From Micromonospora cremea (lineage in GTDB: Bacteria > Actinomycetota > Actinomycetes > Mycobacteriales > Micromonosporaceae), in NCBI RefSeq assembly GCF_900143515.1, contig NZ_FSQT01000002.1:4775501-4839500 (forward strand): a stretch of DNA of 64,000 bases. Direction: 5' to 3'. The position numbers were made by a program, and so were the translations under genes. Below, in pieces: positions 5,457-64,000 of the stretch. Position 1 is the stretch's first letter. Each line of letters opens with the position of its first letter. The notes beneath the pieces were generated by a model. It searched no databases. It was given only the letters and a program-made list of their open reading frames with translations, and was not told where the DNA came from.

Positions 5457-6629
5457 ATGGGTGAGCCGGGCGGCGAGCGGCTGATGCGCGAGGAAGCCAG
5501 CTGGCGGCGGGCTAGTTTCCTGGAGCTGTTCTTCGATCTCGTCTTCGTGTTCGCGCTCAATCAGATCAGCTTGCGGCTGATCAAGGACTTCAGCACCGGG
5601 CACCAGCTTCGGTTCGGCGAGCTGGCGGCGACCTTCCTGCTGTTCCTGATGCTCTGGACGTTGTGGCTGACAACGGTCACTCTGACCAGCCGATTGCACC
5701 CCGATGCACTGCCGGTCCAGATCATGGTGTTCCTGGCGGTGGCCGGGGCGGTGGTGATGGCCGTGGCGGTGGCGCAGGGGTTCGAGCAGCGGGCGCTCGT
5801 CTTCGCCGCCGCCTACGTCGCGTCCCGGATAGGCCGGGTGCTGCTCGCCCTGATCCTCCGCCTGGGTCAACGGGCCCCTATCCCGGTGCTGGTCTCAGTT
5901 AGCGCGAGCGCGGTGCTGTGGATCGTGGGCGCGTTGGTGGACGACCTGCTTGTCCGCGGCGTGCTCTGGGCCCTCGCGCTGGCCATCGACTACGGCGGGT
6001 ACGCGCTCAGCGTTCGACGGACAGCCGGCGGACCAATCGCCGGCGAGCACCTGGCCGAGCGGTTCCAGCAGTTCTATTTGATCACGTTGGGTGAGGCGAT
6101 CTTCGTATCTGGCAGGGCACTCACCAATAGCGACTTCGGCATCCCGCATGCGGCCGGGTTCGGTCTGGCGATCGTCACCACCGTGCTGCTCTGGCGGATC
6201 TATTTCTACCGGGCGGGGCTTACCCTGCCGATTGCCTTCACCCGCGCCCGGAACCCGGCCCGCGAGTCCCTGGCGGTCGCCGGGAGCCACCTGCTCATGA
6301 TCGCCGGTGTCGTGCTCGCCGGTGTCGGTTTCGAGCTGTACATCGTCGAGCCGCTCGGCCGGCCGGAACCGCAGTGGCTCATCGCCATCCTCGGCGGATC
6401 CGCACTGTTCCTGGCCGGGCGGGCACCCTTCGAACTGCAGGTCTTCGGCCGGATCTCCCGATCACGGCTGGCCGGCCTGCTCGCCCTAGGCCTCCTGATC
6501 CCGGCCACGTGGTACGCGCCACCGCTGGCCACCGGTGCCGCCGCCACTGTTGTACTGGTCGGAATCGCCGCCTCGGATGCGTGGCGTGCCCGAGGCCGGG
6601 CACCCGAGCCACCCGCCCCACGGATCTGA
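5457..6629 (+). CDS. Low temperature requirement protein A (LtrA) family membrane protein
   Basis: 390 residues with about ten hydrophobic segments. The family signature ASFLELFFDLVFVFALNQIS is at the N-terminus, and AGEHLAERFQQFYLITLGEA in the middle is the second conserved block. Function of the family is not well defined; it was named for a cold-growth phenotype in Listeria. ATG 5457 is used, with ATG 5484 possible. The gene begins about 110 bases outside the IS5-group element, in sequence that looks like another IS flank. A diverged paralogue is at 43411-44592. Confidence 0.88.
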   Translation: MGEPGGERLMREEASWRRASFLELFFDLVFVFALNQISLRLIKDFSTGHQLRFGELAATFLLFLMLWTLWLTTVTLTSRLHPDALPVQIMVFLAVAGAVVMAVAVAQGFEQRALVFAAAYVASRIGRVLLALILRLGQRAPIPVLVSVSASAVLWIVGALVDDLLVRGVLWALALAIDYGGYALSVRRTAGGPIAGEHLAERFQQFYLITLGEAIFVSGRALTNSDFGIPHAAGFGLAIVTTVLLWRIYFYRAGLTLPIAFTRARNPARESLAVAGSHLLMIAGVVLAGVGFELYIVEPLGRPEPQWLIAILGGSALFLAGRAPFELQVFGRISRSRLAGLLALGLLIPATWYAPPLATGAAATVVLVGIAASDAWRARGRAPEPPAPRI

Positions 6630-7413: not shown

Positions 7414-7650
7414 GTGTGTCGTGTTCCCTCCTGTGATTGGTGGCCGATCAACCAGACATCCGGAACCGGCCACTTGCAATGTATTTCTTCGGAGGGGCGG
7501 GCGGAACGACGTGCTCGCTCATCGGCAGAAGCGGATGCCTGGCACACCAGCCGTCGTGGACAGTCGACGTCACGGTCCGTATACGGCATGCTCGAGGCCC
7601 GTGTAACCCATCAACCGAAGTCACCGCGTAACGCATCATACGGAGTACGA

Positions 7651-7667
7651 CACACCGTCACCAGAAT
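7651..7667 (+). repeat. 17-bp direct repeat, copy 1 of 3
   Basis: CACACCGTCACCAGAAT. The same 17-mer recurs in the same orientation at 8533-8549 (one mismatch, T for C) and at 12929-12945 (perfect). The three copies lie immediately outside the ends of the two adjacent inserted segments at 7668-8534 and 8568-12910. They could be target duplications shared by successive insertions, or a site recognised by the elements. Confidence 0.75.
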
Positions 7668-8534
7668 TGCCGGGTCTCAGGACCTCCGTGACAGATCAGT
7701 CTCATGACCCGCGTGACACATCCGGCTAGACGATCTTCCTCGGGTCGGCGATCTAGGGTGAGGTCGATGAAGCTAGCCGAGATTCGCCGTTATCCGATCA
7801 AGTCACTGCTCGGTGAGCAGCTCACTACAGCCGAGGTCGACCAGCGAGGACTAGTTGGTGACCGCTTGTGGGCCGTGCGTGACGCGGACGGGAAGTTGGG
7901 CAGTGGGAAGAACAGCCGTCGCTTCCGGCGGATGCGCGGCTTGTTCACGCTGCGCGGACATTCTGGTGATCCGGTGCCGGTCGTCGAACTGCCAGACGGA
8001 AGTCGCTTCGCTGCGGACGAGCCCGCGGGGCATGAGACTGTCAGCGAGGTGCTCGGCCGTCGCGTGACGATCGAGCGCGAAGCGGAGGTCATGCACCATG
8101 ACGAGGGCCCGGTAAGCCTCATCACCACCGCCGCCCTACGGCGGCTCCATGACCTGTTAGGGAAGTCGGTCGACCCAGTGCGGTTCCGGGCGAATCTGCT
8201 CGTCGACGTACCGGGCAGCGACTTCCCAGAGGATGGCTGGCTCGGGCGAGCCGTCCGCATCGGTTCCGAGGTGGTGTTGCGACCACGCCGGCGACTCACC
8301 CGGTGCGTCATGATCGACCTTGCGCAGGAGGACGCTCCACAGCATGGACACCTCTTGCGGACCGTTGCCGAGCACCACGACATGACGTTCGGCGTGTGGG
8401 CAACAGTCGAACAGCCTGGTCGTATCCGGCTACAGGACGCGGTCGAAGTCACCCCGGCCTGAGACCCCACCAAGCCCCCGGAGTGTCACGCAGGTCCTGA
8501 TACCGATCTGTCACGGAGGTCCTGAGACCGGACA
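7668..8534. mobile_element. Transposase-free cassette A with IS481-like ends
   Basis: Near-perfect 47-bp inverted repeats at 7673-7719 and 8483-8529 bound an 867-bp unit whose only gene is a MOSC-domain protein. Each end holds two direct half-sites of the form GTCTCAGGACC...GTGACA spaced by GATC, an arrangement typical of IS481-like termini. Outermost bases are TG...CA. The flanking 15 bases CACCGTCACCAGAAT (left) and CACCGTCACTAGAAT (right) are a candidate target duplication. No transposase is present, so it would need one in trans, as described for mobile insertion cassettes. A second cassette with related ends is at 25625-26442. Confidence 0.72.
7767..8462 (+). CDS. MOSC domain protein (cassette A cargo)
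   Basis: 231 residues with the layout of the MOSC/YiiM-like superfamily. An N-terminal beta-barrel segment (EIRRYPIKSLLGEQLTTAEV, RGLVGDRLWAVRDADGKL) is followed by a C-terminal MOSC core with the single conserved Cys in RRLTRCVMIDLAQ. Relatives bind molybdenum cofactor or sulfur-carry and reduce N-hydroxylated compounds. The gene starts 48 bases inside the left inverted repeat and ends 21 bases before the right one, so it fills the cassette. There is no good Shine-Dalgarno; GGTGAGGTCG precedes the ATG. Confidence 0.85.
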   Translation: MKLAEIRRYPIKSLLGEQLTTAEVDQRGLVGDRLWAVRDADGKLGSGKNSRRFRRMRGLFTLRGHSGDPVPVVELPDGSRFAADEPAGHETVSEVLGRRVTIEREAEVMHHDEGPVSLITTAALRRLHDLLGKSVDPVRFRANLLVDVPGSDFPEDGWLGRAVRIGSEVVLRPRRRLTRCVMIDLAQEDAPQHGHLLRTVAEHHDMTFGVWATVEQPGRIRLQDAVEVTPA

Positions 8535-8549
8535 CACCGTCACTAGAAT
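8533..8549 (+). repeat. 17-bp direct repeat, copy 2 of 3
   Basis: CACACCGTCACTAGAAT, one mismatch from the copies at 7651 and 12929. It lies between the right end of cassette A and the left end of the next inverted-repeat-bounded segment. Confidence 0.75.
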
Positions 8550-8705
8550 GTCCTCCGTCGACTGATGTGCGACACGTGTCCGCCAACTGATCTGCGACAC
8601 CTCAGCACGCTGATCGCGGCATGTGCGGGCGTTACCGCGCAGTGGCCGATGGCGGGAGGTGCGAGTGTGACCCTGAGGGCGCGCAGCTGCGTCTCCCGCC
8701 GGGTG

Positions 8706-8734
8706 GATACCAGCATGTCTGACGTGCTGGTATC
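8706..8734 (-). terminator. Hairpin at the stop of the SHOCT gene
   Basis: GATACCAGCA (8706-8715) and TGCTGGTATC (8725-8734) form a perfect 10-bp stem with a nine-base loop. It overlaps the stop codon of the minus-strand gene ending at 8733. There is no U-tract, as is common for actinobacterial terminators. Confidence 0.6.
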
Positions 8735-9554
8735 AGGGGCCACCGAGCAGTTGCTGGCGAGCCGCAGCGAACTCCTCGTCGGTCAACTCGCCGCGTTGAT
8801 GCTGCCCGACCAGCACCGACAGTTGGGAAATCTGGCCGATGATCGGACGGGCTGCCCCAGCGACCGGCGCTGGCGCCGAGTCCCCCAGGTAATGAGTTGC
8901 TGGCGCCGAGTCGGCCAGGTAATGAGTTGCTGGCGCCGAGTCGGCCAGGTAATGAGTTGCTGGCGGCGGTGCCAGCTGTCTGACCGGACGGAAGAAGCGG
9001 TTGGCTGAGGGTCGCGCGAGCAGCACGACGACGACGATCAGGGCGAGCATCGCGAAGAGGGCAAAGCCGGCGCTGAGGTACTGATAGGCCGGCGGGTACG
9101 CGGCCGGCAACCGCTGGACGAACGTGTTAGTTCCGGAGGCGTCGCGGGTGAACGCGGACACGTAGAAGATTCCGCTGAAAGCGGGCGTACCAGCTTGACC
9201 CAGACCGCAGAAGCTGCACATCAGGGACAGACCGATCGCGATCCAGGCGATGATGCGGCCCGCGAAGTGCCCCGCACGCACTGAGGCCGCGATACCCAGT
9301 AGGACCAGTGCTGCCACGGCGGTGATCAACGCCGCGACGTAGGGCAATGCCGAGGCCAGTGGTTTGATAACGTCAAAGGCGCGTGGGTCGACTTCGGAGG
9401 TGTTCAGTGCCTCCCGCACACGGTCCGGGTACGCAGCTGCCCCAACGGCGACCGCCATCGCGTCTGCGAGATACCCGACGGCCACGACGGTCATCAGAGT
9501 CACTGCAATCGTTACTGACCGCGGCCGTCCACCGACCTTCGCCCGATCCACCAT
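8733..9554 (-). CDS. Membrane protein with four TM helices, decapeptide repeats and SHOCT tail
   Basis: 273 residues. Four hydrophobic segments (about residues 13-36, 68-90, 97-118 and 160-182) are followed by three tandem copies of PATHYLADSA and a C-terminal SHOCT-like helix pair (VGQHQRGELTDEEFAAARQQ). SHOCT domains often end actinobacterial membrane or phage-shock-like proteins, and their role is unclear. The overall arrangement resembles DUF4064-type proteins. ATG 9554 is well supported by GAAGGGAG nine bases upstream. The decapeptide repeats come from a 30-bp tandem DNA repeat and may vary in number between strains. Confidence 0.8.
   Translation of the reverse strand: MVDRAKVGGRPRSVTIAVTLMTVVAVGYLADAMAVAVGAAAYPDRVREALNTSEVDPRAFDVIKPLASALPYVAALITAVAALVLLGIAASVRAGHFAGRIIAWIAIGLSLMCSFCGLGQAGTPAFSGIFYVSAFTRDASGTNTFVQRLPAAYPPAYQYLSAGFALFAMLALIVVVVLLARPSANRFFRPVRQLAPPPATHYLADSAPATHYLADSAPATHYLGDSAPAPVAGAARPIIGQISQLSVLVGQHQRGELTDEEFAAARQQLLGGP
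8871..8965 (-). repeat. 30-bp tandem repeat, about three units
   Basis: Units at 8881-8910, 8911-8940 and 8941-8970 are nearly identical; the third decays in its last few bases, and a 10-base partial unit precedes the first. They lie in frame in the SHOCT protein gene and encode the PATHYLADSA repeats. Exact in-frame tandem units suggest replication slippage. Confidence 0.9.
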
Positions 9555-9731
9555 CGGCACTCCCTTCTCAACGGTTGCCGGTGACGCTAGCAGCGGCCGT
9601 CGATGGGACGCGATCGGCGCCTCGACACACTCTCGGCATAGAAAGACGTTCTGCGTGTCGATGCAGGACGTAGGAACGTCCCCCTGATGCGCTTGTCGGG
9701 CTTGGTGTCCCATCGCAGGAGGAGGACGTTC

Positions 9732-11085
9732 ATGGGTAACGGTAGCGGTGTGTCCCGGGGTGATCGCAACCGCAACGCGCGGCTTGCTCGGCTGCGGGCG
9801 TTGGTGCCGGTGACCAACGCGATCGTGGGGATCGACTTGGCCGACGCGAAGCAGATGGTCGTAGTCACCGATCACGACTCGAAAGTGTTGGCCCGTAAGA
9901 CATTCCGCTGCCGCGCCTGGAATCTCGGGGCAGTGTTGGACTGGGCCGCCGAGCGGGCCGCGGCGAAAGGCTGGGCGGGGGTGACGGTGGCGTGCGAGCC
10001 GACCGGGCACCGCTGGCGGGTCCTCGGCCAGCTCGCTGCGGACCGGGCGATGCCGTTCGTGTGCGTGCAGCCGATGCTGACCTCGTGGGCGCGGCGCAGC
10101 GAGGACCTGACCTCGGACAAAACCGATGAGAAGGACGCTGTGCTCATCGCTCGGCTGACCGCGCAGCTGCGCTGCTACGTGCCGGAGCCGATCGATGAGA
10201 CCTGGGGCCGGCTGCGGCATCTGGGCGCCCGCCGCGAACAGCTCATCATCGAGATGGTCAGCCAGGTCCAGCAGATTCGCGCCCTGCTCGAGTGTGTCTG
10301 GCCCGCCGCGCTCGATACCGCCAAGCAGCCGTTTCGGTCGGCGCACCTGGGCTGCAGCGATGACGGTGATCTGCCAGCGTGACGGCGGCGACCTCGCCCG
10401 CACCCGACGCCTCGGTGCGGCCCGGTTCGAGCAGGCCGTGCGCCGTGAGATCACCCGCCGCGGCGGGTGCAAACCCTCGCTGCGCATCCTGCGGCACCTG
10501 TTCACCGCCTTGGCCGACCCCACCGGGGTGATCGCCCACCGGCCCGGTGCACTGGAGCGGGTCGCGTTCCTGCTGCAGGACTGGCACACCGCCACCGACA
10601 AGCTCACCGACACCGAGACCCGGATGACCCGCGTCCTCGACGAGCTCAAGCTGACCGATCTGGCCACCTCCCTCCCCGGCCTATCGGCCGTCGGCGCCGC
10701 GGCGATCCTCGCCGAGACGGGTGACCCGAACCGGTTCGCCACCGCCCGCGCCCTGGTCAAGCACGCCGGCCTCGCACCGCGGGAGAAACTGTCCGGCACG
10801 TTCGTCGGCCGCACCAAACTCACCGGCCAGGGCCGACCCGCGCTGCGTCTGGCCGCCTGGCGGGCAGTCTGGGGCGCCCAGCGCAGCAATGCCGTCTATG
10901 CCGCCCGCTACCAGCATTTGACCACCCGGGAGACCAACAAGCTCACGGCGACCCAAGCCCAGACCGTCATCGCCGCGGCGATCCTGCGCCAGTTGCACGC
11001 CGTCATCACCACCGGACGAGCGTGGAACGCCGACATCGCCACCTACGGCAGCCACCACCGCAGGCAGGTGGCTCTAGCCGCCTGA
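9732..11085 (+). pseudogene. IS110 family transposase, frameshifted
   Basis: The N-terminal DEDD domain runs from ATG 9732 (VGIDLADAK, ACEPTG, SDKTDEKDA). The C-terminal Transposase_20 domain includes LPGLSAVGAAAILAETGDP and AGLAPREKLSGTF. Together they make a complete IS110 protein, but they lie in two frames. Continuity breaks at 10341-10344, where one extra C separates PFRSA from TWAAAMTV. Restoring one frame would give about 450 residues. I treat it as a pseudogene or a sequencing error; there is no slippery heptamer to suggest programmed frameshifting. Confidence 0.85.
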
Positions 11086-11365
11086 TTCTTCGTCGCGGCG
11101 TTCAAGCTGACGGCCGGGGCGAGCCCTACGCGGCATTGAGACACGCACTGTGACCTCGCCTGTCATCATGGGCAGCCCCGGCCCGTCGTCTCATCAACCC
11201 GATTACACGCTGCCGGGGACCAACCCCATCACCGCTATGCAGGGACAGACGACGGCCGAGGCACCGACCAGAAGCTTGACCAAAACGACTTACGCTGATG
11301 ACAGGACGTTTCGTCGGCGGCCAAACCTGCCGCCTCTAGATGAATGAGTCCGAAGTGCGGGCTGG

Positions 11366-12268
11366 TCAGTGGTCGTAGGCGATGAGTGATCGTTTGCTGG
11401 GTGCGCCGATGTTGGTGTTGTGCCAGATGCAGGTGGCCATCGCGAGGAGGCGCTGGCCGATACGGGCGTAGATGCCGCCGCGGGTACGAGATCCGTGGTG
11501 TTCCAGGCTGAGCTGGCCTTTGAGCGTGTCGAAGATCGCTTCGATCCATTGGCGCATGCGGAGCAGGCGCTGCTCGGCTGGGCTACTGGCCGGGTCGCTG
11601 GTGTTGCGGCGGGCGGGGCGGACCAGGTGCGCACCGAGGTCGTCGAGGAACGTCTCGAAGTCGGCGCCGGCGAAGCCCCGGTCGGCGAGGATGACCTGCC
11701 CGGCGTGGATCAGGTGGTGGTCGACTTCCAGAAGGGCGGCCATCACCTCGCGTTCGCCGAATTTCGGATTCGCCAGGCACCAGGTCACCGGCATCCCTTC
11801 GACGGTGGTGACCAGATATAGGCGCATGCCCCAGAAGTAGCGCGAGTGGCTGGCGCAGTAGCCGTACCCGGCGTCGCCGGCCAGGTCGGAGCGTTTGGCG
11901 GTCTCCCTGGACGTGCCGCACGGCACCGGGGTGGAGTCGATCAGCCGCAGGATCGGCACCCCGGTCGTGGTGACTTCGGCTAGGCGCCGGATCGCCTCGG
12001 CGATCAGTGGGCCGGCCGCGCGCAGCCGTTTGCCGTACCCGGACTGGTCGGGGATGTAGGGGAACAGATGGCGCAGGTGCTTGCGGGCATAGCGGATCCA
12101 GTGCCGCTCGCGCGGGAAGTCGAGCAGGACCTGGGCAATTGCCAGGCACAGCAGCTCGGCGTCCGACAGCAGCGGCGGGCGTCCGATCCGGCGACGCCCG
12201 ATGACGTGATCGTCGCAGAACACGTAGAGTGCCGTGAGAAGGGTGTCAAGGTTCGCTGTCACACGCAA
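11366..12268 (-). CDS. IS982 family transposase
   Basis: 300 residues, intact DDE enzyme. Landmarks are GRPPLLSDAELLCLAIAQVL, the first Asp in LRLIDSTPVPCG, RYFWGMRLYLVTTVEG, the second Asp in VILADRGFAGADFE, and the final Glu in WIEAIFDTLKGQLSLE. The C-terminus SKRSLIAYDH matches the usual end of actinobacterial IS982 transposases. GTG 12268 is the start. The last codons and stop lie inside the terminal inverted repeat. All three catalytic residues are present, so this copy could be active. Confidence 0.93.
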   Translation of the reverse strand: MRVTANLDTLLTALYVFCDDHVIGRRRIGRPPLLSDAELLCLAIAQVLLDFPRERHWIRYARKHLRHLFPYIPDQSGYGKRLRAAGPLIAEAIRRLAEVTTTGVPILRLIDSTPVPCGTSRETAKRSDLAGDAGYGYCASHSRYFWGMRLYLVTTVEGMPVTWCLANPKFGEREVMAALLEVDHHLIHAGQVILADRGFAGADFETFLDDLGAHLVRPARRNTSDPASSPAEQRLLRMRQWIEAIFDTLKGQLSLEHHGSRTRGGIYARIGQRLLAMATCIWHNTNIGAPSKRSLIAYDH

Positions 12269-12346
12269 ACAGTGACACCCTTCGCCGTGCGGTCAAGCGA
12301 GTCGAGGGTCGCCGGACGGGTCACGATGCCGACTATGATCATCTCC

Positions 12347-12838
12347 ATGACCACCGCTCTCGTACTGATCGACCTGATGCCGCGAATCATCGCTCTGCCT
12401 GTTGCCCCGCACTCCGGCCAACAGGTTCTTGAACGGTGCGGTCGGCTGGCCAAGGCGTTCCGCGCGAATGATCATCCGGTGGTTCTGGTCCGGGTGGAGC
12501 GGCCGAACGTGTCCGAGCAGCCACCCGGCAGTGACTTCGCCGATGGCCTGGTCCAACCCGACGACATTGTGGTGGTCAAGCGCACCATCGGGGCATTCCA
12601 CAACACCGACCTGCACGACCAGTTACAGAGTCGTGGGGTGAACACACTGGTCCTCGCTGGGCTGGTCACCACGATGGGGGTGGAGTCCACGGCGCGGGCG
12701 GCCAGCGACTACGGCTACGAGTTGGAGTTCGTCGCCGACGCGATGTCCGGCCTCGCCGCCGAGGAACACAAATTCACCATCGAGAAGATCTTTCCTCGGT
12801 TCGGCAAGGTGCAGAACACTGACGCCTACGACCACTGA
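12347..12838 (+). CDS. Isochorismatase-like protein lacking the catalytic Cys (IS passenger)
   Basis: 163 residues with the cysteine-hydrolase fold: Asp in ALVLIDLMPR, Lys in IVVVKRTIGAFHNTDL, and the usual GxxTxxC segment as GLVTTMGVESTAR. The position of the nucleophilic Cys is Gly (MGV). Members with this variant are known, so it is probably not a classical isochorismatase; binding or another reaction is possible. A second in-frame ATG at 12335 is an alternative start. The final residues AYDH and the stop codon come from the IS terminal repeat, which suggests that the native C-terminus was replaced on capture. Confidence 0.82.
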   Translation: MTTALVLIDLMPRIIALPVAPHSGQQVLERCGRLAKAFRANDHPVVLVRVERPNVSEQPPGSDFADGLVQPDDIVVVKRTIGAFHNTDLHDQLQSRGVNTLVLAGLVTTMGVESTARAASDYGYELEFVADAMSGLAAEEHKFTIEKIFPRFGKVQNTDAYDH

Positions 12839-12928
12839 CCAGCCCGCACTTCGGACTCATTCATCTAGGTCGCTGGATCTGTCGCACCTCAGTTGGCGGA
12901 CACGTGTCGCGGATCTGTTGTCGGATCA

Positions 12929-12945
12929 CACACCGTCACCAGAAT
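12929..12945 (+). repeat. 17-bp direct repeat, copy 3 of 3
   Basis: CACACCGTCACCAGAAT, identical to 7651-7667, lying just outside the right inverted repeat of segment C. Confidence 0.75.
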
Positions 12946-13569
12946 CCCCGTGAGAACTTTCTGTACGTCTTCAAGGCGGCCCGCAACGGGCCGCACGCGC
13001 CGCCGCGAGGGCGCGCGCCGGCCGCTGCCGCTGTCGCTCTGCGGCCGTCACGCCGGACGCCCGGCGGCCGGCGCGGACAGCGGGTAGCCCGGAGGGCCGC
13101 CGCAGAACGACAGCCCGTTGACCGGTGGTGTGGTGGGCCGCCAGCCGGCCGGGCCGCGCGGCCAGCACCGCGCGGCGTAGCGGAGCGCACGCCGCCGCGT
13201 CGGCGAGCTAGCGGCGGTCGCGGGGTTGCGGTTAGGGCTGCCTCCGGCGGGGGCGCTCCGGCTCCAGGATGGCCGGGGCTCCGTCGGCCGGTCACGGTCC
13301 CTGGGTGGCCCCGCGCCATCCCGCCTGCCATCGACCAGGGCAAGCCGAGCAGACCACCGCCCGACCCGCCAGCCTTCGAACCTGCGTCAAGGTCGTCTTG
13401 ACCTGGCGGGCCGGGCGGGGCCCGCTCCGCCAAGAGGGCGGGTCGACGGCACACCGGATGGCGCGGGGCCATTTGAGACCGGGGCATGCCTACTGCTAGC
13501 GATCAGGAGGAGCTAGATCTGGACTAAGAGTCGACCCCCAGCCAGCCGGGTCCCCGCGGAACTCACTCG
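12946..13569. other. Very GC-rich stretch without a supported gene
   Basis: About 620 bases are extremely G+C rich. Open frames exist on both strands only because stop codons are rare at this composition. They are dominated by Arg, Pro, Ala and Gly, with no recognisable motif and no good ribosome-binding site. It may be decayed plasmid- or element-derived DNA. Confidence 0.5.
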
Positions 13570-25624: not shown

Positions 25625-26442
25625 TGTCGGGTCTCAGGACCTGGGGTGACAGATCAGTCTCGGGACGTGGGTGACACTTGCGGCTAGACCGCCGCCTACT
25701 GGCAGCCGTGGGACAGTGTGGAGACGGCCAGGAGGGTGCGCGAGTCAAACCGGGTCGCCCAGGGCTGACCTGCCTCGGTGACCTCAATCTCGTGGTCGCT
25801 CAGGAATCGGGCGGTACCGAAGGTGCCCTCGGGACCAAGTCCATCGAATGGCGTGGCGAAGCATGCGAGGTCCTGGTTGGCCTCCCGACTCCTCAGCCCC
25901 GCCCGCGACCGGATACGTAAGACATCAAAGCCCGTCATGAATTCGGGGTAGTGCAGCAGGACCACCTCGAACGAACCGTCTGAGGAAAGGGCTACAACTT
26001 CAGTATCCCCGTCTGACTCCACGCCGTAGAGCGACGGCCCCAAAAACTCGACGCCACTACAGGCCGCCATCAACGCCAAGACGGTCGCGACCACAGCCAC
26101 CGCCCGCGCGAGTGCTGGCCGCAGGACAAGCCACGCCGCGACGCCGAGCAGCACCGATGCGGCGAACAGCACAGCCGCCACGACTGACGTGCGGCCGAAC
26201 GGCATGAGGTGTACGTAGTGCCACGGATTGCGCCAGGCAACGAGACGGCTGGCACCGCAACGACGACCAGGCCGGTGAGCACGATTGCCATAACCCGCCG
26301 ACGGACGATGTTCATCGGTCGTTGCTCGATCAATCGCTCGATCACTCGCTCATCGTGATTGATCGCCCAGGCCCCAGGTACCCCCAAGCCGTGTCACCCG
26401 GGTCCTGATACCGATCTGTCACGCAGGTCCCGAGACCGGACA
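25625..26442. mobile_element. Transposase-free cassette B with IS481-like ends
   Basis: The ~47-bp inverted repeats at 25630-25677 and 26391-26437 have the same structure and largely the same sequence as those of cassette A (GGTCTC-GGACCT ... GTGACAGATC ... GGTGACAC). The 818-bp unit holds one minus-strand gene for a small membrane protein, here frameshifted, and no transposase. Outer ends are TGTC...GACA. The four flanking bases are CCAG and CCGG, so no long target duplication is evident. Size (0.82 versus 0.87 kb) and design match cassette A; cargo does not. Confidence 0.7.
25696..26315 (-). pseudogene. Membrane-anchored hypothetical protein, frameshifted (cassette B cargo)
   Basis: From ATG 26315 the frame reads MNIVRRRVMAIVLTGLVVVA, a first hydrophobic helix. 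The C-terminal frame, ending at 25696, has WRNPWHYVHLMPFGRTS, two more helices (VVAAVLFAASVLLGVAAWLV, AVAVVATVLALMAACSGVEF) and an outside domain. The frames join at about 26240, where one base is missing (VSL then WRNP). The repaired product is about 206 residues. No family is recognised. Confidence 0.6.
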
Positions 26443-26491
26443 CCGGATGCCAGCCAAAATGTCGGGCTCCGCTTGACGCTTCTATGGCTCG

Positions 26492-27543
26492 TCAAGTCCT
26501 TCCGGCGGTTTCCATGAGCCGGAACATGTGTCGGGCGGTGTAGCGCTTGAGGCAGCGGCGGATCTCGGCGTCGGATTTCTGTTGGGCACGTCGGCGGGTG
26601 AGGTAATGCTGGGTGGGTTCGTGGCCGTGGATCATGCGCCAGTTGACGATGGTGTGTAGGGCTCGGTTGAGTTGCCGATCGCCGAAACGGTTGAGCCGGT
26701 GACGGGTGATGCGGCCGGAGGATGCCTGCAGTGGACTGACGCCGGCGAGGGCGGCGAAGGCGGCTTCGGAGCGGCATCGGCCGGGGTGGGACCAGGCGAT
26801 GATGAGGTGCGCGGCGCTGACTGGGCCGACGCCGGGTTCGGCCAGCAATGCGGGCATGATGGTATCGACCAGGTCGTGGAGTTGGCGCTCGTTGGCGCGG
26901 ATCTCTCGGTCGAGCTGACGGATGCGTTGGGCCAGGTTGCGTAGGGTCTGTCGCAGGACCCGCTCGGCGGCGGTGTGGCGGGCGTGGACCCTCAGTAGGG
27001 CGCATGCGGCTGTCTGCCGCGGGGTTGACTGTCGGCGTAGCGGCTCGCGCAGCTGGTCGGGTGCGATCAGCAGCAGTGCTTTGAATACGTTGATCGCGGC
27101 GGTGCGGGTCGCGTTGGCGTGTTCGCGGGCCACGAGCAGGATGCGTAATGCTTCCCGGTCGCGTCGCTGCGCGGCTGGGCGTGATGTCCTGCGGCCAGGG
27201 TGGTGCAGGCGGCCAGGCGGGCATCGGACGGGTCGGACTTGCCGCCTGGTCGGCGGCCGACGCGTTGCGGCCGACCAGCTTCGACGACGTGCTGTCCCGC
27301 AGCCAGGAGGGCGCGCAGCAGCCCGGCTCCGTGCGAGCGGCAGCCTTCCACCGCCCAGATCAATCGCGGGCCTGGCGCCTGGTGAGCGGCCCAGGCGATC
27401 AGCTCGCTGTAGCCGTCAGGGCTCGCCTCGAAGGTGACGGCCGCGACCTCGCGGCCAGTGCCATCGACCAGGCAGGCGGTGTGCGTGTCGGTGTGGTTGT
27501 CCACGCCGATGACGGCGTCGACCGATTCTGCGAGCATGGGCAT
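26492..27543 (-). pseudogene. IS110 family transposase, frameshifted
   Basis: A full IS110 protein is split into two frames. The N-terminal part starts at ATG 27543 (DAVIGVDNHTDTHTACLV, IWAVEGCRSHG, SDPSDARLA). The C-terminal part has PGVGPVSAAHLIIAWSHPGR and SDAEIRRCLKRYTARHMF. The frame breaks near 27160 (PRSD then DREALRILLVAREH), consistent with loss of one G. It sits between cassette B and the IS30 element. Confidence 0.85.
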
Positions 27544-27680
27544 CAGGCCGCTGCTCCTTCCCAGAGGCGGTGGTTGACGTTGGCACCGGCCTGGGTGGAG
27601 ACACCTACGGCACATCTGTGATGAGCCACGCCACACGGCGGGCAAGCTTCTGATCAGGCCAGACGGGGCGGATTCCAGTG

Positions 27681-29107
27681 GTCGTTGCAACACCTCAATC
27701 AAGGGGTGTGTGCATGGGTAGGCCACCAGGTTGGGTGACGGAGGTGACGGGCAGGCCAGCGATGCGATCGCCGGGCCGGCCGGGTGTGAACGAGCACCGG
27801 GAGGTGCGGCGGCAGTTCTGGCGTCGGATCGCCGAAGGTCTGTCGAGCGAGGAAGCTGCGGCGGCGTGTGGTGTGTCGCAGCCGGTGGGTGGGCGCTGGT
27901 TTCGTCAGGGTGGCGGTATGGCACCTTTGTCGCTGGTTCCGCCGTCGGGCCGGTATCTGTCCTTCGCCGAGCGTGAAGAGGTCGCGCTGCTCAAAGCACA
28001 AGGCAAGGGCGTGCGAGAGATCGCTCGAGCGGTAGGCCGTGACGCGTCGACGATTTCGCGAGAGCTGCGCCGCAACGCCGTGACTCGTGGCGGCAGCCTG
28101 GACTACCGTGCCGTGGCCGCGCAGTGGCATGCCGAGCGTCGTGGCCGTCGCCCGAAAACCGCGAAGCTGGCGGCGAACCAGCTGCTGCGCGACTACGTGC
28201 AGAAGCGGCTCGCCGGCACGATCACCGACGTTGATGGTCGGCCGATCCCGGGCCCGAACGTGCCGTGGAAGGGACGCCGGCACGGGCGTCGCGCAGATCG
28301 GCGATGGGGCACGGCCTGGAGCCCGGAACAGATCAGTCGGCGGTTGCGGGTGGACTTCCCGGATGATGAGTCGATGCGGATCTCGCACGAGGCGATCTAT
28401 CAGTCGCTCTACGTTCAAAGCCGCGGTGCGCTGCGCCGTGAGCTGACGGCGTGCTTGCGCACCGGCCGGGCGTTACGGGTGCCGCAGGCGCGCACCCGTA
28501 GACGGGGCAAGCACTTCCTCAGCCCAGAGGTCATGATCAGCCAACGGCCGGCGGAGGTCACCGACCGGGCCGTGCCAGGCCATTGGGAGGGCGACCTGAT
28601 CATCGGCCTGGAACGCTCGGCCATCGGCACGCTGGTCGAGCGCAGCACCCGGTTCACGATGCTTCTGCACCTGCCCCGCATGGATGGCTACGGTCAGCAG
28701 CCTGTGGTGAAGAACGGCCCGCCGCTGGCCGGGCACGGCGCCGAAGCGGTCCGAGACGCTATCGCCGACCAGATCACCAACCTGCCCGAGCAGCTACGCC
28801 GCTCGCTGACCTGGGACCAGGGAGCCGAGATGGCCCAACATGTCCAGCTGCGTCTGGACATCGGTCTCGAGGTCTACTTCTGCGACCCGCACAGTCCCTG
28901 GCAGCGCGGCACCAACGAGAACACCAACGGACTGCTGCGCCAGTACTTCCCTAAAGGCACCGACCTATCACGACACAGCATCACCGACCTCGAGGCCATC
29001 GCCGCCGTGCTCAACAGTCGGCCCCGCAAGTCTCTGGAGTGGAGAACGCCAGCAGAGGCCCTGGACGAACACCTAAGATCAATCCAACAGGCCGGTGTTG
29101 CAACGAC
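27681..29107 (+). mobile_element. IS30 family element
   Basis: Perfect 14-bp inverted ends GTCGTTGCAACACC (27681-27694) and complement (29094-29107) enclose a single intact IS30 transposase. I see no target duplication in the flanking bases, so one flank may have been rearranged. The ORF reads through the right end and stops seven bases outside it. Confidence 0.85.
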
Positions 29108-29114
29108 TCCTTGA
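27714..29114 (+). CDS. IS30 family transposase
   Basis: 466 residues. An N-terminal HTH region (SSEEAAAACGVSQPVGGRWF), the IS30 signature YLSFAEREEVALLKAQGKGV followed by REIARAVGRDASTISRELRR, then a DDE core: GHWEGDLIIG (Asp), LTWDQGAEM (Asp) and GTNENTNGLLRQYFPKGTD (Glu). All catalytic residues are present and the frame is intact, so the element may be active. ATG 27714 is chosen because it is the first codon after the left inverted repeat. The stop codon lies beyond the right repeat. Confidence 0.93.
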   Translation: MGRPPGWVTEVTGRPAMRSPGRPGVNEHREVRRQFWRRIAEGLSSEEAAAACGVSQPVGGRWFRQGGGMAPLSLVPPSGRYLSFAEREEVALLKAQGKGVREIARAVGRDASTISRELRRNAVTRGGSLDYRAVAAQWHAERRGRRPKTAKLAANQLLRDYVQKRLAGTITDVDGRPIPGPNVPWKGRRHGRRADRRWGTAWSPEQISRRLRVDFPDDESMRISHEAIYQSLYVQSRGALRRELTACLRTGRALRVPQARTRRRGKHFLSPEVMISQRPAEVTDRAVPGHWEGDLIIGLERSAIGTLVERSTRFTMLLHLPRMDGYGQQPVVKNGPPLAGHGAEAVRDAIADQITNLPEQLRRSLTWDQGAEMAQHVQLRLDIGLEVYFCDPHSPWQRGTNENTNGLLRQYFPKGTDLSRHSITDLEAIAAVLNSRPRKSLEWRTPAEALDEHLRSIQQAGVATTP

Positions 29115-29279
29115 ACCTAAGCGGTGAGCCAGGCCGGTGCCAGCGATCAGAGACGACAGGTCAAGCGCAGGGCACGCCATCGACGGCCAGATGCGTTAGG
29201 AGTCAGTCCCTGATCACCGGCATCGATCCTGGCAGGAGTCCACCCAGGACCACCACCGCGAGCCTCACAGATGCGTTAC

Positions 29280-29335
29280 GGATCGCTGTCACTTGATTCG
29301 TGACACGTCCGGCTAGGCGATCTTGGTTGTTCCTT
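29280..29335. repeat. Solo IS481-like end
   Basis: GTGACACGTCCGGCTAGGCG followed by ATCTT matches the inner edge of the left end of cassette A (GTGACACATCCGGCTAGACG) and the stretch at about 61345. It has no partner nearby, so it is a remnant terminus of the same element family that supplies the cassette ends. Confidence 0.55.
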
Positions 29336-29837: not shown

Positions 29838-30180
29838 CTATCCGACGCTGTCGAGGGGGTTCGGGTTTGCGGACCTTGAACCGGGCGATGGGTTTGGGGG
29901 TTGTGCAGGCACTTCGGTGAGGAGCTGGTCGCCGTCGTGGACGCGGAAGGTGGTGTCGGCGTCTTCGACGGTGAGGGTTCGACCGGCGTGCTCGATGCCG
30001 ACGTGGATTTTCTGGCCGGCGATGACGAGTACCGCGGCTCCTGACGCGTCGTTCGACGCGTGGTGGTTCGGTTGCCGGGTGGGTGGGGTCCGGCGGGGCG
30101 GGCGTCGCGGATGCGGGCCTGCGCCATTGGGGTGAGCGGGTTGGGCAGGCTGCGCGGCAGGGTCCGGTCGGCGTCGAGGA
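29838..30180 (-). pseudogene. IS481-type transposase, C-terminal remnant
   Basis: Two frames together give RSLPNPLTPMAQARIRDARP and VLVIAGQKIHVGIEHAGRTL, then DADTTFRVHDGDQLLTEVPA, the C-terminal beta domain that follows the integrase core in actinobacterial IS481 transposases. The catalytic domain is gone. A second remnant of the same region is at 63440-63858. Confidence 0.7.
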
Positions 30181-58256: not shown

Positions 58257-58439
58257 CGCCTCCGCAGCTACCGTAGTCAGGAAAGACCCGCATTACCCGG
58301 TAATCGCCGATTTGCCAGGGGCAGAGCGGGCCGGCCACGACCGGGGAGCCGAGCAGCCAGCCCGCCACCGCCAGATACGGCACGGCGGCCAACGCGACGG
58401 CCACGCGTTGCCGGCCGCGCCTGACGCCCTCGGCGGCAT

Positions 58440-58560
58440 ACCGAGCCAGCCAGTTGTGGATCGGCTGCCGCGACACCCCATACCGGGCGGCGACCTCAGT
58501 CTTCGCAGTGCCGCCCACGCACTCCACTACCGCGTGAAATCGCTGCTCCATGACGCTCAA
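58440..58560 (-). pseudogene. IS481-type transposase, N-terminal fragment
   Basis: MSVMEQRFHAVVECVGGTAK followed by TEVAARYGVSRQPIHNWLAR is the HTH start of an IS481 transposase. After YAAEGV the sequence changes abruptly to unrelated coding-like sequence leading to the transketolase. Confidence 0.75.
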
Positions 58561-58873
58561 CCCCGCGAGTCAACCAAACCCGGGCAGTCCCAAGTCAGTG
58601 ACAACGGCAGCGTCCGACAGCGAACGTCCACGAACTCTGACGGACCGTTCCCGCAGGTCAGCACAGGCATATGAGCAGGCTAACGCTGCGTGATCCTTGC
58701 TTGACACGCAAGCGGCCGCCAGCGACGAGGGTGGAGGCGCTGAGCCGGGCCAATGACGCCGGTCCGGTCCTGAACAGTCATCCTTCCTACACCTCTCGTT
58801 AGCCTGGCCTGTCTATGTTTCCTTGGCCGGGGGCCCACCCGGACCAGCGCAGACCAACCGGAAGCTGAGCACC
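58561..58873. other. Intergenic
   Basis: Contains no gene. CGGACCGTTCCCGCAGGT near 58639 resembles a sequence near 31582 (CGGACCGTTCGCGCAGGT), again beside element remnants. Part of this stretch should hold the promoter of the small peptide gene. Confidence 0.35.
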
Positions 58874-63369: not shown

Positions 63370-63439
63370 GGAGCTGCTACTCCTTGCCTTGGCCCCTGCG
63401 TGGGACCGGCGGGTTGACCCGCTGCTCTGTCCACTGCCC

Positions 63440-63858
63440 GTCGCGGGGGCTCTGGTTTACGGGCTTTGAATCTAGTGATGGCCTTGGTGGTGGATTGAGC
63501 CACTTCGGTGATCAGCTGGTCGGCATCGTAAAGCGGAAGGTGGTGTCGGCGGCTTCGACAGTGAGAGTGCAGCCGGCTTGGGCAACGCCGACGTGGATGC
63601 GTTGACCGGCGATAGCGAGGGCTCCTCGGCTGCTGACGCGGCGTTGGACCCCGCAGCGGTTCGGGTGCTGGGGTGGGTGGGGTCCGGCGGGGCGGGCGTC
63701 GCGAAATCGTGGCGATCTTGGGCGCTGCGAGGGGGTTGGGCAGGCTGCGCAGCAGGACGCCGGCGGCGGTGATCTGCATGAGGCCGCGGTCGAGTCGGAC
63801 GGTGACGCGTTGTCCGGCGAAGTGGTAGTCGATGGGGTGTTGCCGGCCGGCGAGGCCG
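63440..63858 (-). pseudogene. IS481-type transposase, C-terminal remnant
   Basis: GLIGLAGRQHPIDYHFAGQR, VTVRLDRGLMQITAAGVLLR and SLPNPLA, then after frame changes TTKAITRFKARKPEPPRRA. This is the C-terminal beta domain of an IS481 transposase with several indels. It directly follows (abuts) a truncated NUDIX gene on the same strand. Confidence 0.75.
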
Positions 63859-63860
63859 AT

Positions 63861-64000
63861 CAGGCCGCCTCGTGCATCTCACGCGCGAGGGCTTGTAGTT
63901 CCGACTCACCCGCTTCGACCTGCCCCCCGGGCAGATCCCAGACATCTGGGTATGCCCGTTTGGTCGGCCTGCTGGTGAGGCGCTCCACCTTGTCCCCGTC
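63861..64000 (-). pseudogene. NUDIX hydrolase, truncated by IS481 remnant
   Basis: The minus frame from the window edge reads RAYPDVWDLPGGQVEAGESE and LQALAREMHEAA, a NUDIX box (G-x5-E-x7-RE) that ends in a stop just where IS481 sequence begins. It shares YPDVWDLPGG with the intact NUDIX at 2688-3104. The start lies beyond the window. Confidence 0.7.

Follow-up and report, generated by a model that had tools for sequence, protein, structure and literature searches.

Structure of cassette A and its array

The 64,000-nucleotide stretch of Micromonospora cremea DNA that we analysed (the window) contains an 867-bp unit, cassette A, whose only gene encodes a MOSC-domain protein (Pfam MOSC, 58.1 bits with a cut-off of 22.7; MOSC_N, 35.8 with a cut-off of 25), with no transposase gene. 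The original prediction had described 47-bp inverted repeats around this gene, and these are contained within a longer pair (7668-7719 and 8483-8534, 52 nt, 88% complementary). Each end was also predicted to hold two half-sites; indeed, the right end carries them as a computed direct repeat, 25 bp apart, and the left end is alike by eye. The outermost bases are TGC..ACA in cassette A, with TGT..ACA in most of its relatives. Directly at the tips lies the predicted 15-bp duplication with one mismatch (14/15 identity, copies 1 and 2 in Table 1). The 15-mer CACCGTCACCAGAAT occurs three times in the window at up to one mismatch, compared with 0.02 occurrences expected, and end-like sequence is found at nine further places in the genome; a chance origin of the repeats was thus rejected.

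Cassette A is part of an array in which element X, cassette A, cassette YZ and a conserved sequence that we call the anchor follow one another, each separated from the next by a copy of the direct repeat. The terminal stretch of X is 92% identical at a second locus of this genome with a different interior (L203) and 82% identical in L109; it matches the profile of s2-type ends with an E-value of 7.5e-16, X itself being among the seven seeds of that profile. Cassette YZ is interrupted at about 9651-11297 and at 11340-12863. In a compact relative (L230, 1948-3022) its pieces are joined at 98.5-100% identity, and YZ is therefore one cassette split by two insertions. Homology to YZ in other genomes begins at its tip, and parts of it are 95-100% identical in four other genomes. 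By eye, the insertion at 11340-12863 holds a transposase-like open reading frame (ORF; 11366-12268, minus strand) and an isochorismatase-like ORF (12312-12838, plus strand), and from the comparison with L230 it appears to be bounded by CTAG and ATGAAT/ATTCAT; it thus possibly represents an IS that carries a passenger gene. Elsewhere in the window, an LtrA gene (5457-6629) was considered as another intact cassette and rejected: it is 81% identical to the interior of L077, but no ends were found.

Table 1 Features of the cassette array and related units. Positions are those of the window unless a locus is named.
Feature	Position	Strand	Remarks
Element X, terminal 139 bp, end type s2	7514..7652	-	tip 7652
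Direct repeat, copy 1	7653..7667	+	CACCGTCACCAGAAT
Cassette A	7668-8534		867 bp; middle unit of array ending at anchor (12961)
L end, cassette A	7668..7731	+	subterminal TCCGGCTAG common to other L ends
Cassette A cargo, MOSC-domain protein	7767..8462	+	231 aa; Pfam
R end, cassette A	8476..8534	-	sequence comparison
Direct repeat, copy 2	8535..8549	+	CACCGTCACTAGAAT, one mismatch
Cassette YZ, end type s3	8549..12930		cargo ORF 8733-about 9600, minus
Direct repeat, copy 3	12931..12945	+	CACCGTCACCAGAAT
Anchor, conserved dispersed repeat	12946..13462	+	core CTGTACGTCTTCAAGGCGGCCC from 12961
Cassette B, same L and R ends	25625..26442		one 169-aa ORF, 25696-26205, minus
s2-type end, interrupted by inserted IS elements	26460..29320	+	pieces 26460-26479, about 29270-29320
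C-terminal remnant, IS481-family transposase	29848..30173	-	84% DNA identity to 2504-bp IS; 53% protein
Cassette C, same L and R ends	L009, 2790-4304		LtrA gene

Related ends and cassettes

The count of nine further places, obtained by DNA search, leaves out cassette A itself and the same ends re-found on the other strand; a pattern search of the genome yielded five tips, two of them belonging to cassette A. With a profile built from 11 ends we obtained 26 matches at E <= 1, seed ends included, of which 14 lie below 1e-3. Cassettes B and C have the same L and R ends as cassette A, and the single ORF of cassette B has no Pfam match. The joined pieces of the interrupted end at 26460..29320 are a seed of the s2 profile. 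Two loci of this genome (L011 and L013) contain near-identical stretches of ~1-2 kb, each with one recognised end of type s1. Across the genus, which we take here to be Micromonospora in the broad sense with Salinispora included, matching ends (E <= 1e-4) are present in 99 of 160 genomes. A wider set gave ends at 1e-3 in 24 of 61 genomes, made up of 22/37 genus members and 2/24 others, the latter weak. A pattern scan of named genomes returned 24 stretches, from Micromonospora, Actinoplanes, Dactylosporangium, Salinispora and a Micromonosporaceae bacterium.

The fetched loci contain 68 convergent end pairs; 18 of them duplicate the sequence of another pair and were set aside, which leaves 50 distinct sequences. 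At a threshold of 1e-5, 42 of these have no transposase, three have fragments and five have a complete or nearly complete protein of ~615 aa, which in one case (L134) is split over two frames. Other cargo between the same ends, which the original prediction proposed to look for, was thus found, and it is diverse. LtrA-like genes occur in 11 of the 50 (by eye), and Pfam, run on part of the cargo, placed LtrA, MOSC, GNAT, FMN_red, TPR, Cys_rich_CPCC, CMD, MFS, Sel1 and UPF0167 above cut-off in paired cassettes and, where a single end was recognised at a locus, DUF6928 and DUF6188; many further ORFs in that part had no match, and a deaminase-like gene in L010 fell below cut-off. Three cassettes look like stages of cassette birth: L177 has kept residues 1-130 of the transposase next to a cargo gene, L178 retains residues 1-89 and 577-608 with a cargo gene within the same cassette, and L187 retains residues 7-69 alone. 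One L and one R end make up 40 of the 50 pairs and two R ends one pair; the rest are not fully classed.

Scored over 14-16 bp with up to two bases of slack, the flanking duplication reaches at least 90% identity in 30 of the 50 pairs (100% in 18) and stays below 90% in 20, compared with 250 of 2450 mispaired flanks (10%; 90 of 2450 at 100%). GCCGGCAGCCGGC is common to many targets, which raises the control; among pairs without this motif, 8/11 show a duplication of at least 90%, compared with 12/110 in the control. Several transposase-free units recur whole at unrelated sites. L130 and L182 (GNAT cargo, 811 and 812 bp) are 93.2% identical over their entire length and have non-homologous flanks on both sides, and the same holds for L081 and L184 (LtrA cargo, 87.3%). 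L068 and L183 are 95.6% identical, one flank being without homology and the other too short to test, and L085 and L086 are 94.5% identical with 102 bp in common on one side. In the outer flanks of L073, L085, L130 and L183 we noticed by eye a second recurrent sequence, ATAGGAGCGTC(C/A)AC, immediately before the duplicated target, which is perhaps the tip of another element type.

Arrays are common among these loci, with back-to-back ends of three types (s1, s2 and s3). For 36 distinct junctions of less than 400 bp, the gap is 13-17 bp in 25 and 2, 2, 2, 4, 21, 23, 24, 32, 36, 39 and 48 bp in the other 11. In L131, one 16-bp repeat both separates and flanks a full IS and a cassette.

Relatives of the MOSC protein are present in 24 other genomes of the genus (E <= 1e-20). 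The original prediction held that the same MOSC gene found in its usual place without repeats would speak against mobility. Six relatives of 63-68% identity indeed have no ends at E <= 1, and three of the six share neighbours; among the ten relatives of 84-90% identity in other genomes, however, six keep an end remnant (E <= 0.01) and the sites are mostly unrelated. Across the eleven loci of at least 84% identity, the window included, flank similarity is seen in two pairs. An empty version of cassette A's own site was absent from the matches listed, with up to three candidates per genome scored in 160 genomes; on the same scoring, partial matches to the joined flanks occur in 90 of the 160. 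Five loci (L222-L226) that span or touch the junction at 76-84% identity were rejected as empty sites, since their spacers differ and they are therefore other arrays. The proposed search for empty sites was fruitful at the anchors, where both empty and occupied sites were found.

A proposed IS481-family helper element

The original prediction also anticipated that these ends would accompany an IS481 transposase. In one genome we found five convergent end pairs ~2504 bp apart, and the two copies of this 2504-bp element that were read have exact 15-bp duplications and encode the same 615-aa protein. This protein scores 298.2 bits with the NCBIfam IS481 model NF033577 (cut-off 224), placing it among the IS481-family DDE transposases, and 38.7 with Pfam LZ_Tnp_IS481 (cut-off 22.2); a search of solved structures returned retroviral integrase cores as the best matches, at an E-value of about 1e-4. 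The ends, TGT..ACA, and the duplication agree with the family, for which the available part of PMC10045372 gives 2-15 bp, as the original prediction had said of such ends and variable duplications, although some copies have a duplication of 16 bp. Transposases 87-92% identical to the 615-aa protein are encoded in L128, L124 and L131, which come from named strains. At 1e-30, any match to this type is found in 9 of 37 genomes, the longest (G010) covering residues 62-599 at 57% identity.

In the genome of the window, a protein search for a transposase of the 615-aa type found no intact copy and fragments only. These fossils show 52-65% protein identity, with four matches in the window (63426-63869 and one overlapping it, 29856-30170 and 58420-58569) and one at C2:516863. 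We observed that 58420-58569 and 63426-63869 are fragments of a second transposase of this group, 52-54% identical to the 615-aa protein. Five more distant matches (six rows, 25-34% identity) could be other IS481-like elements.

The anchor

Many cassettes are bordered on their outer side by one and the same conserved sequence, the anchor. In this genome its core occurs nine times at up to three mismatches, compared with none for the reversed pattern, and seven copies, with that of the window among them, can be aligned for 450 bp or more. The fetched loci hold 32 distinct anchors, of which 26 have a cassette tip within 60 bp of the core, at 27 (1), 29 (3), 30 (16), 31 (4) or 42 bp (2), so that 24 of 26 tips lie 27-31 bp away and 16 at exactly 30 bp. 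The duplicated sequence varies between these tips at constant spacing. Of the ends nearest the anchor, 20 are R, two are L and four are unclassed. The six anchors without such a tip are L064 (tip at ~31 bp by eye), L085, L193, L198, L199 and L200. Occupancy in this set is biased because the loci were mostly fetched for holding ends; the nine anchors of this genome form an unbiased set, made up of five with an end 30-42 bp away, two empty ones (L193 and L198) and two poor copies.

The two empty anchors face a small gene, of 88 aa in L193 (1182-1448, minus strand; ..GRWWNRAWGSIARRDIWLVSDG..), with related copies in L014, L048, L126, L183, L089 and L084. In L089 and L084, a cassette lies between this small gene and an anchor, and the copy in L084 contains a stop codon. 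Beside the small gene at the empty anchors is a LexA-like box, imperfect in L198. Outward of the Y tip, L227 and L228 show by eye a variant anchor-like sequence (a hairpin followed by CTTGATCTGATAGAG) at 31 and 44 bp, and the core that we used may not cover the whole anchor family.

As to its nature, the anchor is rich in hairpins. It was rejected as a known RNA: Rfam gave six loci no match at gathering scores, and the window anchor had four chance-level matches. RNAalifold on 14 anchors gave 132 pairs, nine with compensatory change, and a covariation term of +2.2, leaving a conserved fold unsupported. We rejected the anchor as a gene, its ORFs switching frame between copies by eye. A plasmid search with the anchor returned two partial Streptomyces matches.

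Discussion

Our analysis suggests that cassette A is a non-autonomous transposon of the mobile insertion cassette (MIC) kind, moved in trans by an IS481 element and inserting at a fixed distance from an anchor, a reading to which we assign a probability of roughly 80%. The simplest account of the wider set is likewise that MICs are mobilised in trans by an anchor-targeting IS481 element. In cassette A, a MOSC gene would have taken the place of the transposase gene of an IS481-family element, whose L and R ends were kept. An intact element would provide a transposase of the 615-aa type in trans; this enzyme would pair the two ends and mobilise the unit, which would be joined to its target with a stagger of 14-16 bp, hence the 15-bp duplication. 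The preferred insertion point would lie ~30 bp from the core of the anchor, which the R end would usually face, whatever sequence is duplicated, and the transposase may itself recognise the anchor. Since the site would survive each insertion, further cassettes could enter at the same place, and repeated entry would build arrays such as X-DR-A-DR-YZ-DR-anchor. The cargo may be of some use to the host.

Other origins have to be weighed. The units might be dead IS copies: an IS481 element inserted, made its duplication and later had its transposase replaced in place, and the units never moved without it. The transposase loss in L177, L178 and L187 and the decayed ends of most MOSC relatives would fit such a history. 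The homologous transposase-free units with non-homologous flanks and duplications of their own argue against it, making in-place decay improbable as the only origin and this explanation quite unlikely overall. Homologous recombination could instead have spread the anchor with its adjoining ends between loci and species, the 30-bp spacing then reflecting common descent rather than repeated targeting. Anchors are long dispersed repeats, and some cassette pairs have 27-373 bp of flank in common, as this would predict; at equal spacing, however, duplicated sequences and cargo differ, all three end types occur at that spacing (s3 once) and two tips have the opposite end, and we regard spread by recombination as unlikely. 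Finally, the repeats that flank the MOSC gene could be remnants of two IS copies unrelated to each other, a possible refutation named in the original prediction; the existence of MOSC relatives without ends agrees with this. Such an origin is now largely excluded, and strikes us as highly improbable, given that cassette A combines a single L end with a single R end in convergent orientation and has a duplication exactly at the tips, a layout found in dozens of units.

These cassettes can be compared with several known systems. MICs, such as MIC231 of Bacillus cereus (cited in the available part of PMC6542083; MICs are also treated in that of PMC3129680), combine IS ends with non-transposase cargo, and their movement is expected from a cognate transposase elsewhere. 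Cassette A shares the IS-type inverted ends around transposase-free cargo and, as do 30 of the 50 pairs at the 90% level, the target duplication at its tips; the cognate IS is present in relatives and was not found in this genome. The statement that MICs are known mainly in Bacillus proved too narrow, as the available part of PMC2909200 describes one with ISPfr11 termini in the actinobacterium Propionibacterium freudenreichii, whereas the proposal of an actinobacterial cassette is supported by the cognate IS481 element, the varied cargo, the duplications and the same-ended units in the genus. In contrast to MICs as far as the accessible parts of that literature describe them, there are here dozens of cargo variants across the genus, tandem arrays and an anchor at fixed distance. 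Likeness to the IS481 family extends to the ~15-bp duplication of some members (PMC10045372, available part), whereas the helper protein has a C-terminal part of ~300 aa beyond the model-matched residues 15-307 and insertion here would be targeted. According to the available part of PMC10132070, ISAjo2-type IS1202 elements also have a lone transposase and TGT..ACA ends, each with an additional binding site close by, and sit in a single orientation at a set distance from their target; by this description, ISAjo2 lies 5 bp away from XerC sites and its duplication is 5 bp long, whereas the spacing here is ~30 bp, from a different conserved core. Among the papers listed in our literature searches, none dealt with these cassettes, and IS481 combined with Micromonospora gave no paper.

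Tn7, which relies on several proteins, inserts cargo at a fixed distance and in a set orientation beside a recognised site. Our cassettes resemble it in this respect, whereas the autonomous element has one transposase gene alone. Integrons gather single-gene cassettes side by side at a dedicated site, as is the case here, and the cassettes described above are set apart from them by ends, inverted repeats and target duplications of the transposon type. More tentatively, at a confidence just short of an even bet, the Micromonosporaceae may have an integrase-free counterpart of the integron, in which a lone IS481-type transposase loads single-gene, transposase-free cassettes ~30 bp from dedicated anchors of ~0.5 kb, in one preferred orientation, and builds arrays by reusing a 15-bp target. 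In this reading, the anchor may be a structured element, of RNA or DNA, that is read by the transposase, and the LexA-like box next to this genome's two empty sites hints at a connection with the SOS response.

If this is true, an IS group with long duplications would have a preferred target; for the long-duplication IS1202 group, its authors found none and left the point open (PMC10132070, available part). Fixed-distance targeting by a lone DDE transposase would become directly testable, and actinomycetes would have a means of collecting and exchanging single genes that needs neither plasmids nor integrases.
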